From Phycisphaera sp. (GTDB lineage: Bacteria; Planctomycetota; Phycisphaerae; Phycisphaerales; UBA1924): a DNA stretch of 55,204 bases. The DNA lies in assembly GCA_025916675.1 (NCBI GenBank), contig CP098402.1, positions 1 to 55,204 of the forward strand, in the 5' to 3' direction. The position numbers and the translations under genes were made by a program. The number at the start of each line of letters is the position of its first letter. Within the stretch, counting starts at the first letter, position 1. The notes beneath the pieces are model-generated. The model saw only the letters and a program-made list of their open reading frames with translations, ran no database searches and was not told where the DNA came from. Of this stretch, positions 22,234 to 30,789 are shown in pieces.

Positions 22234-23772
22234 ATGCGGCCCAGCCGCGGTTTGGTGCAAGCGATGCGTGTACCGTGGCGAATAAGGGTGCTTGGTGTCT
22301 TGGCGCGACCCAAGTCGAAGCGGGCGTTGATCGCCTCTGCTCTACTCGTCCAGGTGGTCGTACTCGGCGGTGGATGGTTCCTGACGTTCCGTATCGTGCA
22401 GCGATCGTTCGGCCTTGTGGTCGAGGACATTGTCCAAGAACATAATCGTGAGATCGTCGAGCGTGTGGCGTCGCTGCTGCCGTCGGTCATGGACGACGTC
22501 GAGTTCGGCGGCGACGACTGGGAGAAGCTCCAGCGGGTGATCGAGGGCGAGGCGCTCAACGACCTTCCGGCTGGCGGATTCGCGTGCCTCATCGAGCCCG
22601 ATGGCCGGTTGCTGTGCCATCCGGATATCCGAGACGATCCTGGATTACGAAACTTCAGTTTCAGCGGCATGCAGATCGCCGAGAGCCTCGACCCGGAAGC
22701 CGAGTATCAGCCAGTGATCTCGGCCGGTTCGCCCAACGAGCCCGCCTCGGGCATCCTGGAGTTTCCCGGCGAGTTCCACTATGTCGCAACACAACCAATC
22801 GACAGCAACGGGCTGCGATTGCTCGTGCATCAACCCGTGAGCGGTCTCATCAAGACTGGTGAGTCGAGCACGCAATGGATCTTGATCATCGCGGGTTTCG
22901 CATCCATCGGCGTGCTCTCGATCTCGGGGTTCGGTTTGAACATGCTGCTGCATCGCTACGAGGGTGCGCAGGAGCGGCTCAACCATCAGTTGAAGGAGCA
23001 TCTCCTGGTCGCGCGACGCATCCAGCGGGCGACGCTGCCATCGAGCCTACCGAAGGTCGCGGGATATGCGTTTTCCGGATGGAGCGAACCGGCAGATGAG
23101 ACCGGCGGCGACACGTTCGACTTCGTCGAGCTCGGGGGCGGCCGGGAAGTCGCCATCATGATCGCCGACGCGTCGGGGCATGGCATCGGGCCAGCTCTGG
23201 CGATCGCGCAGCTGCAGGCCATGGCCCACCTCTCGTGGCGCCACGAGCGGGATCCGCTGGCCGTGGCGCGGGTGCTCAACGAACGGATGGTGGCCCAGCT
23301 CCCCGACGGTCGGTTCGTCACAGCCTGGTTCGGCGTGCTCGATCACACCACGGGCCGGCTGCGCATGATCAGCTCGGGCCAGGATCCGCAATTGGTGTAC
23401 CGGGCCGCGACCGATCGGGTCGAGCGGCTGCCGACCGACACGGTGCCGCTGGGGATCCTCGATGGGCTCGAGGGTGATGGCTGCCGCGAGATCGAACTCG
23501 AACCCGGCGACACGCTGCTCCTGGCGTCGGACGGCATCGCCGAGACGGCGCTCAACGGCGAGCAATTCGGCGTGGAGCGGCTGGCCAAGGTCCTGCACTC
23601 GAACAATGCCCGTACACCAGAAGAGATTACCGATGCGGTTCGGTTGGCAGTTAGCGAGTTCTCGCGCGATCGTCAAGCTGCCGACGACCGGACCGTCGTG
23701 GTTGTGCAAAGGGAGCGAACAACCATGCTGGCGGGCGAGTCGGAGCGTATACTCCCGGCTTCGGGCGCATAG
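22234..23772 (+). CDS. SpoIIE/PP2C-type serine phosphatase, membrane sensor
   Basis: 512 residues. The N-terminal membrane helix (about 32-52), an extracytoplasmic sensor domain of about 160 residues (EIVERVASLLPSVMDDVEF to LLVHQPVSG) and a second helix (about 213-233) precede a short coiled linker. The C-terminal PP2C/RsbU domain begins near LLVARRIQRATLPSSLP. Metal-binding residues are visible in PADETGGDTFD and IADASGHGIGPALAIAQLQAM, and near the end in DDRTVVVVQR. Such proteins dephosphorylate anti-sigma-factor antagonists or receivers in response to signals. Its TAG stop codon lies inside the following tRNA gene, a 10-nt overlap. An 11-bp CGCGTAACGCG palindrome lies just before the gene. 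Confidence 0.92.
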   Translation: MRPSRGLVQAMRVPWRIRVLGVLARPKSKRALIASALLVQVVVLGGGWFLTFRIVQRSFGLVVEDIVQEHNREIVERVASLLPSVMDDVEFGGDDWEKLQRVIEGEALNDLPAGGFACLIEPDGRLLCHPDIRDDPGLRNFSFSGMQIAESLDPEAEYQPVISAGSPNEPASGILEFPGEFHYVATQPIDSNGLRLLVHQPVSGLIKTGESSTQWILIIAGFASIGVLSISGFGLNMLLHRYEGAQERLNHQLKEHLLVARRIQRATLPSSLPKVAGYAFSGWSEPADETGGDTFDFVELGGGREVAIMIADASGHGIGPALAIAQLQAMAHLSWRHERDPLAVARVLNERMVAQLPDGRFVTAWFGVLDHTTGRLRMISSGQDPQLVYRAATDRVERLPTDTVPLGILDGLEGDGCREIELEPGDTLLLASDGIAETALNGEQFGVERLAKVLHSNNARTPEEITDAVRLAVSEFSRDRQAADDRTVVVVQRERTTMLAGESERILPASGA

Positions 23773-24023: not shown

Positions 24024-24048
24024 ATCAACGACTTGTGGGGTGATGTCC

Positions 24049-24843
24049 ATGCCCGACGATCGAATCCCAGCGGATTACAACCCCATGGCTTTGGCCAGGG
24101 TGTTGCGCGTGCGCCGTGGCGTTACGCTGATCGAGTTGCTGATCGTGCTGGCCTTGCTTGGCGTGTTGTTGGGCATCCTGCTTCCCGTGCTCAATGGCGC
24201 CATCGATGCCTCACGCTCGTTCCGATGCCAGATGTCGATGCGCAACGTGGCATTAGACCTGACGATGTTCATCGATCTGGACGAGCCCAGGCCGCAGGAT
24301 CCTTGCGGCCGGCACGGGCACGTGGCGCTCGAGACGTTCCAGGAGAGCCTGTACGGCATCGACGAGTACTGGCGGTACGGCAGCGATCGCTCGCAGGTCT
24401 CGCTTGGTAACGAGGACGACGTGCCGCTGCGCTGTGCGGCGGTTCGTGGCGACCTCGTCCTGCGACGTGACGCGCCATGCTCTTCGGGTGGCGTTGCGAG
24501 TTGGAACACCGTGTCCTACGGCTTCAACGCGCGGCTGCATCGGGTCGATGGCCCGGGCGGTCGCAGCATGGGCACCTGTTTGACCGAGCGAGTGCTGGAA
24601 AACGGCATGGTCCCGCTGGCCTGGGACGTGGATGGAAAAGAGGCCACTCGGCGCGGCGTGACCCCCGTGTTTTCCGCACCACCGATCGGCGATGGCGGGC
24701 TCTATGACGACGGGCTGAGTTGGATGCCCGCCGCACGCCACGGGTCGGGCATGAACGTGGTCTTCATGGATGGGCACATCGACTCAAGCCATCGGCCACT
24801 GGAAGAGGCCGGATGGCGTTGGGATTACTACGCTCGCCACTGA
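24049..24843 (+). CDS. Prepilin-like protein with H-X9-DG motif
   Basis: 264 residues. The N-terminus has a type IV prepilin/pseudopilin signal: basic residues, then RRGVTLIELLIVLALLG with the conserved Glu at position 5 after the cleavage site (VTLIE rather than the usual FTLIE). Near the C-terminus, RHGSGMNVVFMDGHID is the H-X9-DG motif of the planctomycete DUF1559-like family. These proteins are processed by a prepilin peptidase and probably assemble into pseudopilus or secretion structures. Starts at 24040 (GTG), 24043 and 24049 are in frame. 24049 is chosen because GGGG lies 8 nt upstream. It is apparently monocistronic. Confidence 0.88.
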   Translation: MPDDRIPADYNPMALARVLRVRRGVTLIELLIVLALLGVLLGILLPVLNGAIDASRSFRCQMSMRNVALDLTMFIDLDEPRPQDPCGRHGHVALETFQESLYGIDEYWRYGSDRSQVSLGNEDDVPLRCAAVRGDLVLRRDAPCSSGGVASWNTVSYGFNARLHRVDGPGGRSMGTCLTERVLENGMVPLAWDVDGKEATRRGVTPVFSAPPIGDGGLYDDGLSWMPAARHGSGMNVVFMDGHIDSSHRPLEEAGWRWDYYARH

Positions 24844-27823: not shown

Positions 27824-29289
27824 TAGGGCTTTGCAGGGCACAAGTAGTCGCGGTGTTGTTCGTGCTTCTGGCAGCCGTCGTTGCTGCCGCTGATGCGACC
27901 GACGGGGTGTATTTTGATCCGACGGGCGACGCGGTGTTGCGTCCGACCGATCGCGGTGGCATGGGGATGGTGCATCCCGACGCGGTATTGCCCGACATCG
28001 TGTCGCTTACGATCGTGGGGTGGCAGCCGTTCTCGCCGGCGAGCGATCCGTACTCGGGGTCCGTGATTGGCAGCGAGGGTGCCGATATCTTCAGGCTCCA
28101 GGCCGTGTTCGATGGATTGATCAATCCGCCCGGTACGCTTGGTTTTGCGGGCCAGCCGTTCGACCCCTACCGGTTCGGCACGAGCCCGGTGTTCGGCTTC
28201 ATCGAGCTGAGCGTGGACCGGCGCGAGAGTACAGGCGGGCACCTGGGTGCTTCTGCCGAGAGCCGGTTCATGGCCAACGTGGCCCGATTCGGGAGCCGGC
28301 CGCACGACTCCATCGGCGGGCGGATCGCGGCATCGGCCGATGACTACGACCGTGACATCAGAACTGGTCCGCAATTCGAGCGGAGCGGCGCCGATTGGTC
28401 GCTCTCCTTGTGCGGCTGCTCGGCCGTGACACTCGTGCGGGAAATTGGCAACGGGAACGGGTTGTTCGAGGCCGGCGAGACCATGATCGTTCGCGGCCGC
28501 TTCTTCGCACGCTCGGAGGGGTACATCGGCCCGAGCGGGATGCGCGGGGGCTCGGTCGACGGCGCGTACGACCCGTGGGTCGATCTGCGATTCAGCCACA
28601 ACATCGCGAGCGATCAAACTATGGTGACGTTCGTCGGGCCGGTTACCAATCGGGGGTACGGCCAACTCGCGGGCACATCGACCCCGCCGATCAACTTCAG
28701 GGCCGACGACGGCTGGAGCATCGAAGAGGGGGTGACCGACCTGATCCTCTCGGTCTGTTACGGTTGCGCCGCCGAATTGCTAATCGAGGATTGGGAAGGC
28801 AGAGATATCGAGGACTCGCTCGAGCCCGACCGCTGGGAAGCGACGGCTCTCGTTGGCACGAGCTACACCGATCCGTTTGTGGATGGCTTGTTTGTTTGGA
28901 CCGACGTTGGCTTCGACTTGGAACCGGGCAACCTCAACGGGGATTCGAGCGTTGGGTTGCTGGACCAGGGCATCTTGCGGAACTGGGTCTACGCGAACGA
29001 TGGGGCGGCGTTCGATGCCGACGGCATCAAGAATGGGGTTGTGGTTGTTCGCAGAACACCGTTCAATTTTTCTCTGTACGACCTCGACGCCTCGGGTGAG
29101 ATCGAGCACCGGGACCTGGCGGTCTACGGGCCACGGGCCGATCTGGATGGCGACGGCGTCTTGACAGTGTTCGACTTCCTGGCCTTCCAGAACTTCTTCG
29201 ACGCCGGCAACCTCCGCGCGGATTTTGACTTTAGTGAGACGCTCGACATCTTCGATTTTCTCGCATTCCAAAACACGTTCGACGAGTAA
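27820..29289 (+). CDS. Secreted protein with degenerate GC-type dockerin
   Basis: 489 residues with a signal peptide (VLFVLLAAVVAAADA). The large exported domain is not recognised; it contains CGCS and CYGCAAELL Cys clusters. Near the C-terminus a type-I-like dockerin segment is visible (NLNGDSSVGLLDQGILRNWV ... DLDASGEIEHRDLAVYG). It is followed by a GC-type pair whose first half is normal (DLDGDGVLTVFDFLAFQNFF). The second half lacks the DGDG calcium loop (DFDFSETLDIFDFLAF), and the protein stops at FDE without the usual Gly-Cys. The GTG start overlaps the regulator's stop codon by 4 nt, with AAGGAG 8 nt upstream. It is therefore translationally coupled to the two-component genes. Confidence 0.85.
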   Translation: MIGLCRAQVVAVLFVLLAAVVAAADATDGVYFDPTGDAVLRPTDRGGMGMVHPDAVLPDIVSLTIVGWQPFSPASDPYSGSVIGSEGADIFRLQAVFDGLINPPGTLGFAGQPFDPYRFGTSPVFGFIELSVDRRESTGGHLGASAESRFMANVARFGSRPHDSIGGRIAASADDYDRDIRTGPQFERSGADWSLSLCGCSAVTLVREIGNGNGLFEAGETMIVRGRFFARSEGYIGPSGMRGGSVDGAYDPWVDLRFSHNIASDQTMVTFVGPVTNRGYGQLAGTSTPPINFRADDGWSIEEGVTDLILSVCYGCAAELLIEDWEGRDIEDSLEPDRWEATALVGTSYTDPFVDGLFVWTDVGFDLEPGNLNGDSSVGLLDQGILRNWVYANDGAAFDADGIKNGVVVVRRTPFNFSLYDLDASGEIEHRDLAVYGPRADLDGDGVLTVFDFLAFQNFFDAGNLRADFDFSETLDIFDFLAFQNTFDE

Positions 29290-29300
29290 CGGTCGTCGAC

Positions 29301-29326
29301 TGGCCACGCGAGGCCCTGTGGCCACG
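29301..29326 (+). promoter_or_regulatory. Candidate enhancer sites for the NtrC-type activator
   Basis: TGGCCACG occurs at 29301-29308 and again at 29319-29326, 18 bp apart. The second lies within the perfect palindrome GTGGCCAC (29318-29325), and a related GGCCATGG follows at about 29333. They lie roughly 110-130 bp upstream of the predicted sigma-54 start, the usual distance for activator binding sites. The assignment to the neighbouring regulator is inference. Confidence 0.4.
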
Positions 29327-29366
29327 GCTGGCGGCCATGGCGAGCCACACCGACTCCCTCCACGTT

Positions 29367-29408
29367 GCAACAACCCCCGTCGCTCACGCTGCGGGGGTTG
29401 TTGCTTTT
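29367..29408 (+). terminator. Strong intrinsic terminator after dockerin gene 27820
   Basis: A perfect stem of about 13 bp (from 29367 to 29404) with a loop of about 11 nt is followed by TTTT. It separates the regulator operon from the sigma-54 promoter, which starts within its tail. Confidence 0.92.
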
Positions 29409-29422
29409 GGCACGGCAGTTGC
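29407..29422 (+). promoter_or_regulatory. Sigma-54 (RpoN) promoter
   Basis: TTGGCACG-GCAG-TTGC matches the -24/-12 consensus (TGGCACG, four bases, TTGC) at essentially every conserved position, with GG (29409-29410) and GC (29421-29422) separated by exactly 10 nt. The predicted start is near 29434, about 70 nt before the ATG at 29503. Confidence 0.88.
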
Positions 29423-29437
29423 CATGGTGTTCATTGC

Positions 29438-29463
29438 CCCGCGGTCGGAGGAGTTACCGCGGG
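29438..29463 (+). promoter_or_regulatory. 5'-terminal leader hairpin
   Basis: CCCGCGGT (29438-29445) and ACCGCGGG (29456-29463) form a perfect 8-bp stem with loop CGGAGGAGTT. It would lie within about the first 30 nt of the sigma-54 transcript and could stabilise the mRNA or affect translation. Confidence 0.6.
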
Positions 29464-29502
29464 ACCAAGACACACGAACTTTCTTACCTCAGGAGAACGA
29501 AG

Positions 29503-30789
29503 ATGCAACGCACGATGAACACGAAGACTCTGACCCTCGTCCTCGCCGCCGGCGCGATCACCAGCGCGGCCAACGCCCAGATCTCGTTTGGCCCGCGTAC
29601 CGACCTGCCGACAGCGCAGCGCCCGGCCGGCGTCGCCGCCGGCGACTTCACCGGCGACGGCCTCATGGACTTGGCCGTCGTCGTCGATAACCCCGACCGT
29701 GTGCTGATCATGGCCGGCGACGGTGCTGGTGGCTTCGCGGCCGGTCCGGTCACCTTCCTCGGCGCGGGCGTCGGTGCCGATGCCGCCGAGGCCCACGACA
29801 TCGACGGCGATGGCGATCAGGACCTGGTCGTCATCTTCGACAACACTTCGAGTGCCCAGATCCTGCTCAACGATGGGGCTGGCAACTTTGCCCCGGGTGG
29901 CCGCGCTGCCACCGGTGCCGAGCCGGTCTGGATCGCCAAGGGCCGGCTCAACGCCAACCCGGGCGCCGACTTTGTGATCGTCAACCGCGACAGCAATAGC
30001 GTGACCATCCTGCTGGACTTCGGCGTCTCGACCGTTAGCTCGACGCTGGCCGTCGGTGCCGAGCCGCGTGCCGCGGCGATCGGTGACTACAACGGCGACG
30101 GCAACGCCGACCTGGCCGTCACCAACCACGACAGCCGCTCGATTGGTATCTACACCGGCAACGGCGCGGGCGGCTTCGTGGCCGGTCAGGTCATCACGAC
30201 CCCAGGCCAGCGTCCCGAGGGCATCGTGTCGGCCGACTTCGACGGCGACGGCGACGCCGATCTGGCCGCTACGGTTGACGATTTCATGCAGGTGTACCGC
30301 AACGACGCGGGCGCCTTCTCCTTTGCGGGTCGTGTGGCAGTCGGTTCGTTCGATCCCTCCGAGATGTACGTCGGCAACTTCGCGCCCGGTGGTGCCGGCC
30401 CCGACGTGATGACCGTCAACAACGACGGTGGCTCGGTTTCCGTGTTCGAGAACCTCGGCGGACTGGCCTTCAGCGCCGCCCTGGTGCTGCCTACGGGCGT
30501 GCAGCCCGAGTTTGCCGCGATCGCCGATTTCGATGGCAGCGGCTCAAGCGATATCGCCGTGACCAACCGCGACAGCAACACCACCAGCGTGTTCATCAAC
30601 GACGCTGTGGTGGCACCGCCCTGCCGGGCCGACTTCGACGGCGATGGCAGCCTGACCATCTTCGACTTTTTGGCCTTCCAGACCGCGTTCGCGATGGGTA
30701 ACCCCCGGGCCGATATCGACGGCGACGGCAGCCTGACCATCTTCGACTTCCTGGCATTCCAGAACCTGTTCGTGGCCGGCTGCCCGTAA
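29503..30789 (+). CDS. VCBS/FG-GAP repeat protein with GC-type dockerin, sigma-54 promoter
   Basis: 428 residues. The signal peptide (TLTLVLAAGAITSAANA) precedes a seven-bladed-type propeller of FG-GAP/VCBS repeats, each with a calcium loop (GDFTGDGLMDLAVV, DIDGDGDQDLVVI, GDYNGDGNADLAVT, ADFDGDGDADLAAT, ADFDGSGSSDIAVT). The C-terminal dockerin has two matched halves (DFDGDGSLTIFDFLAFQTAF and DIDGDGSLTIFDFLAFQNLF) and ends VAGCP. AGGAG with 7 nt spacing sets the ATG at 29503. It is the clear target of the sigma-54 promoter at 29407 and therefore probably of the neighbouring two-component system. Confidence 0.92.
   Translation: MQRTMNTKTLTLVLAAGAITSAANAQISFGPRTDLPTAQRPAGVAAGDFTGDGLMDLAVVVDNPDRVLIMAGDGAGGFAAGPVTFLGAGVGADAAEAHDIDGDGDQDLVVIFDNTSSAQILLNDGAGNFAPGGRAATGAEPVWIAKGRLNANPGADFVIVNRDSNSVTILLDFGVSTVSSTLAVGAEPRAAAIGDYNGDGNADLAVTNHDSRSIGIYTGNGAGGFVAGQVITTPGQRPEGIVSADFDGDGDADLAATVDDFMQVYRNDAGAFSFAGRVAVGSFDPSEMYVGNFAPGGAGPDVMTVNNDGGSVSVFENLGGLAFSAALVLPTGVQPEFAAIADFDGSGSSDIAVTNRDSNTTSVFINDAVVAPPCRADFDGDGSLTIFDFLAFQTAFAMGNPRADIDGDGSLTIFDFLAFQNLFVAGCP

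Follow-up and report, generated by a model that had tools for sequence, protein, structure and literature searches.

Sigma-54 promoters, two-component systems and C-terminally tagged secreted proteins meet in the PEP-CTERM system. The accessible portion of its description (Haft et al. 2006; PMC1569441) sets out an upstream motif, a PrsK/PrsR pair and a -24/-12 element that precedes the genes of secreted proteins by 71 nt on average, and the accessible portion of another study (PMC9850573) reports the mapping of RpoN-dependent pepA, with TGGCAC at -24. As far as these portions describe that system, the locus analyzed here resembles it in several ways: a kinase is accompanied by a response regulator of the NtrC/Fis type, usually in tandem; a -24/-12 element precedes genes for secreted proteins that bear a C-terminal sorting-type domain; and a box farther upstream is proposed as the site of the regulator.

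Our literature searches returned no paper with the term 'GC-type dockerin', nothing joining dockerin, Planctomycetes and sigma-54, and nothing joining dockerin, sigma-54 and two-component; a kinase-regulator-dockerin unit was not found described. Four papers contain both Phycisphaerae and dockerin. In the accessible part of a sigma-54 regulon survey covering Planctomycetota (PMC12316311), the word 'dockerin' does not occur. Here we analyze such a unit and the promoter beside it in a window of 55,204 nt, by which we mean the whole stretch of DNA that was analyzed, from a genome that forms a single 3.62-Mb contig.

A sigma-54-type promoter element before a dockerin gene

The -24/-12 element, TTGGCACG-GCAG-TTGC, spans positions 29407-29422 on the plus strand (TTGGCACG at 29407-29414, GCAG at 29415-29418, TTGC at 29419-29422) and matches the sigma-54 pattern exactly, with exactly 10 bases between the GG at 29409-29410 and the GC at 29421-29422. 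The ATG of the putative target gene P0005 (29503-30789, plus strand) lies 80 bp past that GC, preceded by a Shine-Dalgarno sequence, AGGAG, at 29491-29495. By eye, P0005 begins with what looks like a signal peptide. It further has FG-GAP repeats (FG-GAP_3/FG-GAP in Pfam) and a C-terminal GC-type dockerin, and like GC-type dockerin proteins it passes the dockerin_GC model NF041540 (50.6 bits against a cut-off of 29). A preliminary description of this DNA had placed a near-perfect RpoN element with GG-N10-GC spacing 80 bp before a dockerin gene, and its coordinates, spacing, start codon and protein assignment all held up. That description had also treated a genome without rpoN as incompatible with the promoter; rpoN is encoded in this genome (PF04552, E 1.2e-59), with the RpoN box ARRTVAKYR.

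Between the genes upstream and the element, a terminator-like hairpin recognized by its folding energy occupies 29367-29404 (plus strand). It has a 14-bp outer stem and a folding energy of -31.1 kcal/mol (z -6.3), its T-tail is just TTTT, and the -24 box starts inside that tail. The strong terminator that had been proposed directly before the element is borne out by folding energy and not by the short tail or by a consensus scan, from whose output the hairpin is absent.

The exact motif TGGCAC-N5-TTGC occurs once in the window, as the 29407-29422 element; with up to two mismatches it occurs 53 times against 61.7 expected. Across the 3.62-Mb genome we counted nine exact copies against two for a reversed-pattern control, and at one mismatch there was no excess (262 against 269). 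On these counts a consensus match by itself is weak evidence, and the element at 29407-29422 is more than chance because it is conserved in relatives. A scan of 29250-29520 for sigma-70-like promoters gave no match, and an ordinary sigma-70 promoter for P0005 was dropped on that result. Judged from sequence, the sigma-54 promoter reading of the element is well supported.

The kinase-regulator-P0004 unit

Upstream of the element, the gene order is prepilin-like, histidine kinase, NtrC-type regulator and P0004. The sensor histidine kinase P0002 (24881-26356) carries HAMP, HisKA and HATPase_c domains (Pfam); the response regulator P0003 (26375-27823) carries a receiver, a Sigma54_activat and a Fis-type HTH_8 domain; and P0004 (27820-29289) is a secreted dockerin-type protein whose gene shares 4 bp (GTGA) with that of the regulator, all three genes being on the plus strand. 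An NtrC-type activator and its kinase had been described as immediately upstream of the element: both are indeed encoded upstream, with the P0004 gene sitting between regulator and element. Relatives of the kinase adjoin the regulator in the loci of relatives. The prepilin-type gene just 5′ of the kinase (24040-24843) has LIELLIVLALLG near its start and FMDGHI near its end, and prepilin-like genes precede the kinase in several relatives too. A SpoIIE-type phosphatase gene (22234-23772) also lies upstream of the unit, and a relative of it is found upstream in genome G005 as well.

P0003 resembles NtrC/AtoC/ZraR-type regulators in its receiver, sigma-54 interaction and Fis HTH domains (AAA+ domain PF00158, E 4.7e-60), and NtrC-family regulators are its best solved-structure matches. 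Unlike them it carries the loop GAFTDA instead of GAFTGA, as do 33 of 36 fetched regulator relatives (the exceptions being G042, which is without the searched pattern, and G052 and G021, unreadable past an early stop), and it falls below the cut-off in the best 25 of 105 NCBIfam models (ntrC, 341.6 against 558.6). GAFTDA is counted among activity-keeping variants in the accessible part of a study of Desulfovibrio vulgaris (PMC4641369), and in that of a study of Dickeya VfmH, which has GAFTDA, sigma-54 was not pulled down (PMC10714721). The genome holds at least 15 matches to the regulator (the best 15 of 33 candidates), so another activator could serve the P0005 promoter.

Conservation within the genus

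We compared seven genomes of the same genus, that of the window included. In five, the regulator (68-100%) and P0005 (66-100%) both have close orthologs, with the gene order kept. The other two, G003 and G006, lack a close counterpart of either: the regulator is matched at 42% at best, and P0005 at best at 41% in G003 and, in G006, by fragments at 64% along the dockerin tail and 40% along the body. All five species having the P0005 ortholog carry TGGCACG-N4-TTGY before it. TGGCACG and TTG are invariant, three of the sites end in C and two in T, and the five spacers (GCAG, GCAG, CTGG, TCCG and AGTC) comprise four different sequences. By this alignment the boxes are kept while the spacer changes, which is the behavior expected of a -24/-12 element. 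The sole exact TGGCACGN4TTGC of the G005 genome is the site before its P0005 ortholog. GGAGA at the Shine-Dalgarno sequence is invariant in the same five-species alignment.

Regulator loci beyond the genus

The wider set comprised 37 loci from 34 genomes, namely the window and 36 fetched regulator loci from 33 other genomes; of six sampled families, the fetched loci represent three, f1, f3 and f4, and weaker regulator matches and the partial match G055 were left out. The regulator gene overlaps a P0004-like gene by exactly 4 bp in 30 of the 36 fetched loci. Under this overlap rule G033 and G007b (both running to the contig end), G047 (none shown) and G075 have no P0004 partner, G075 having a P0004-like match and a regulator match split into two pieces, and G052 and G021 were misread owing to an early in-frame stop. 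At locus L048 (G052), two kinase-regulator-P0004 units stand in tandem within 15.5 kb.

In the main placement test, a site had to match TGGCACG-N4-TTGC at 10 or more of 11 positions and be followed, 50-140 bp on, by an ATG that has a Shine-Dalgarno sequence and opens an ORF of at least 100 aa with a signal-like N-terminus (37 loci, 376 kb). Such sites were found in 18 of 37 loci with the real motif, in none with the reversed motif, and, with 200 permuted motifs of the same composition, in 0.15 on average and never more than 2. Counted anywhere in the 37 loci, sites numbered 25 for the real motif, 11 for the reversed motif and a mean of 10.2 for permuted motifs, whose maximum was 64, so that it is placement and not raw count that stands out. 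Lowering the ORF minimum to 80 aa gave 19 loci with a spacer of 4 and 0-1 with spacers of 0-3 and 5-8, and when 9 or more of 11 matches over a wider range sufficed, the margin narrowed, to 21 loci for the real motif versus 3.8 on average, and 13 at most, with 60 permuted motifs. The 37 loci are related and so do not represent independent events; on these motif statistics, chance cannot reasonably be the account of the placement and exact spacing seen across them.

Site and regulator are conserved together in relatives. At the level of gene order and motif, the kinase-regulator-P0004 unit is conserved across three families, with a predicted sigma-54 target beside it in 18 of 37 loci. In the other 19 regulator loci the main test revealed no neighboring site. 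A target thus need not lie beside its regulator, and in these loci it may be elsewhere.

The 18 targets differ in type and position. Nine have a dockerin-like tail (five genus members, G012, G029, G045 and the second G017 locus, whose target is DUF3466-like, below that model's cut-off). Six are proteins of ~140 aa without a dockerin tail (G007, G063, G067, G075, G079 and G083), and no Pfam family was matched at E <= 0.01 by the two of these small proteins that were searched. The remaining three run off the fetched stretch (G014, G017 and G036): that of G014 resembles P0005, and the partial targets of G017 and G036 are propeller-like by eye or by weak matches. The target is downstream of the unit in the genus, G012, G014 and G045, and divergent, upstream of it, in G007, G017, G029, G036, G063, G067, G075, G079 and G083. 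Within family f4, exact TGGCACGN4TTGC sites and reversed controls numbered 32 and 3 in G063, 21 and 2 in G067, and 11 and 2 in G079; these three genomes may have larger sigma-54 regulons.

Upstream boxes and a candidate regulon

Candidate activator boxes, GGCCA, stand at 29302, 29320 and 29333 (29302-29337, plus strand), the first and third 31 bp apart; such boxes lie ~75-110 bp upstream of the -24 element and are often ~31 bp apart. They were spotted by eye before the statistical tests. Among 17 of 21 upstream sequences, near-duplicates being excluded, GGCCA on either strand was the top 5-mer (15 sequences against 6.2 expected) and TGGCCA the top 6-mer (7 against 1.0). The pair test covered those 11 of the 21 upstream sequences that are nearest the window: direct GGCCA pairs 30-33 bp apart occurred in six of them, against 0.01 expected; the six are four same-genus species, G029 and G039, the last represented by a site that has no qualifying start codon and stands outside the 18 sites. 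The boxes are weak or absent in several distant loci. Paired GGCCA combined with TGGCAC proved unspecific as a genome-wide pattern (matches in 145 of 300 genomes) and was set aside; over the seven genus genomes it gave 22 matches against 8 for the control. From their recurrence and spacing, the GGCCA boxes are likely a binding site for the regulator.

Four of the nine exact copies in this genome stand no more than about 110 bp ahead of a start, and three of these four, that of P0005 included, precede genes with GC-type dockerin tails. Similar sites before other dockerin genes, which the preliminary description had looked to as support, were thus found twice more. The gene starting at 1032373 (minus strand) encodes a 623-aa protein ending in a GC-type dockerin, with its tail among the profile matches listed; the 673-aa product of the gene starting at 1412329 (plus strand) has one single GC-type repeat at its end, a tail that was read by eye and is not included among the dockerin_GC places listed. 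Between -150 and -30, these two promoters have 2 and 3 GGCCA boxes (Markov-shuffle probabilities of 0.017 and 0.0015), the window promoter has three (0.0008), and the fourth promoter-position site, which is not before a secreted gene, has one (0.086). With boxes at two further dockerin promoters, a regulon of three genes appears likely in this genome. Searched with the first 483 of its 673 residues, the 1412329 protein gave matches in other genus genomes to the repeat part only (residues 380-483), so this target is probably specific to the species. At L006 (G000:C1:1124938-1124952), the GC of an exact -24/-12 site is 34 bp before an ATG, and the gene product has an acidic start and an Arg-rich run, with no signal peptide by eye.

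The genome contains at least 150 dockerin_GC places (the best 150 of 224 candidates). Among 42 plus-strand dockerin_GC genes below 2.67 Mb, four have a site with at most one mismatch in the start region, against 1.0 expected, and the exact site is before P0005 only. This sigma-54 control does not seem to extend to most of the ~150 dockerin genes.

The P0004 family and the P0005 leader

Twenty-nine aligned proteins of the P0004 family (28 of 32 stretches plus the window, with G052 and G021 excluded as misread and G079 and G063 as near-duplicates) share a conserved body of ~400 residues and a dockerin-like tail, and no Pfam family was found for the body in this set. P0004 itself scores 26.5 bits against NF041540, below the cut-off of 29. 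Dockerin_1 is matched at E <= 0.01 by 15 of the 29 members, and the family profile matches solved cellulosomal type I dockerins (2y3n, 1.9e-8). The repeat flavor of the tail varies by lineage. With an AlphaFold2 model of P0004 (mean pLDDT 90.4), Foldseek returned no solved structure at E <= 0.001, and VIA placed glucodextranase 1ug9 first (Z 7.5, rmsd 3.4, 160 aligned; next row 4.5, with 7b04_C, 2ivf_C, 7nwn and 1i82 at 3.7-4.1), Z values under 8 being such as may reflect a common arrangement. The model hints at a sugar-binding-type fold for the body, possibly a CBM9/DOMON-like one.

The transcript of P0005 is predicted to start at about 29434, 12 bases after the GC of the element. Just past this predicted +1, a hairpin with a GGAGGAG loop occupies 29438-29463 (plus strand), with counterparts in four same-genus relatives, and GAGGAG is invariant in the leaders of the five genus members. 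Over these five sequences, 88.6% of cells are paired and three pairs are changed on both sides; the paired-cell share and the covariation score were each reached by 7 of 500 shuffles and the number of both-side-changed pairs by 99 of 500, so that covariation is suggestive. Folding energy of the whole leader was no better than that of shuffles (z -0.6 to 0.0; the L042 and L043 stretches were shifted), and the hairpin stretch alone gave z -1.82. The genome has two matches to csrA. A GGA-bearing loop together with GGA in the Shine-Dalgarno sequence is reminiscent of CsrA targets, and 29438-29463 is a possible CsrA-type site.

Discussion

We consider it very probable that the element at 29407-29422 is a working sigma-54 promoter belonging, with the neighboring kinase and regulator and the GGCCA boxes, to a small regulon of secreted proteins. 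From the conserved promoter and neighborhood, the presence of rpoN and the shared boxes, we infer a path of signal, phosphotransfer, binding and promoter activity. The kinase (24881) would sense a signal and phosphorylate the regulator (26375), which would bind the GGCCA boxes, some 75-110 bp ahead of the -24 element, and open the promoter through ATP hydrolysis against sigma-54, allowing RpoN to transcribe P0005 (29503) from a start near 29434. Targets in this genome would be P0005 and probably the two GC-dockerin genes at 1032373 (minus) and 1412329 (plus), and those in relatives would be dockerin-tailed repeat proteins or small proteins of ~140 aa. The secreted P0004 would be made together with the regulator and probably joins the same surface process. 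That the neighboring two-component system drives the P0005 promoter is likely, given the conserved neighborhood and the shared upstream boxes.

A related account keeps the sigma-54-dependent promoter and assigns it to another NtrC-type activator, the adjacent two-component system controlling something else. It draws on the at least 15 regulator matches in the genome, on the 19 of 37 regulator loci that have no adjacent site in the main test, and on L006, where the gene behind a good sigma-54 site is not a secreted one. Yet site and regulator stay neighbors across genera despite the target changing side and type, and G003 and G006 lack both regulator and target; we therefore hold this account to be quite unlikely.

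Far less probable still is a chance consensus match in the hairpin tail, with P0005 read from an unrecognized housekeeping or ECF promoter in its leader. The overlap of the -24 box with the T-tail, further exact copies inside coding sequence of this genome and the lack of a one-mismatch excess genome-wide would all fit such a match, but the element is kept in five species while its spacer drifts, qualifying sites, which depend on the right spacer, occur in 18 of 37 loci where permuted motifs reach 0.15 on average, and the sigma-70-like scan of 29250-29520 was without a match. Equally hard to credit is sigma-54 control as a general property of the GC-dockerin genes of this genome. Three sigma-54-type promoters do precede genes with GC-type dockerin tails, but against the at least 150 dockerin_GC places the plus-strand test (4 of 42 genes with a site, 1.0 expected, P0005's alone exact) left a general dockerin regulon unsupported, and we disfavor it.

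Beyond the regulon of secreted proteins that we prefer, a more speculative extension would make the locus a dedicated dockerin-surface-protein module, present in three families of this order. Its parts, taken jointly, are that kinase, GAFTDA regulator and the co-translated P0004, whose body is possibly CBM9/DOMON-like, make up a single sensing unit, with P0004 informing the kinase about the cell surface or a bound sugar; that the regulator fires a small sigma-54 regulon of secreted proteins; and that in the genus the regulon mRNA begins with the GGAGGAG hairpin, open to CsrA-type translational control. We offer this combination tentatively and think it rather doubtful as a whole.

The kinase-regulator-dockerin unit goes beyond the preliminary description. 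Conserved as it is and coupled to a predicted sigma-54 promoter, the unit would provide a first regulatory handle on GC-dockerin proteins, since it names a specific regulator, putative targets and candidate boxes.

Comparison with known systems

The dockerin tails recall the cellulosome, from which this genome differs in having no match to cohesin (PF00963); as far as that model sees, this is therefore not classical cellulosome pairing. There are differences from the PEP-CTERM system as well. P0005 carries a dockerin tail and no PEP-CTERM; P0003 scores 318.8 against a cut-off of 502.6 for TIGR02915, the PrsR model, and P0002 scores 93.4 against a cut-off of 300 for TIGR02916, the PrsK model; and the third gene encodes a secreted dockerin protein in place of the TPR protein PrsT. 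By analogy, the PrsK/PrsR-sigma-54 system is nonetheless the nearest precedent; the present locus would work in a like manner, and it fails two of the tests for that family. The comparison suggests that a two-component system and sigma-54 have been paired with C-terminally tagged surface proteins outside PEP-CTERM as well.
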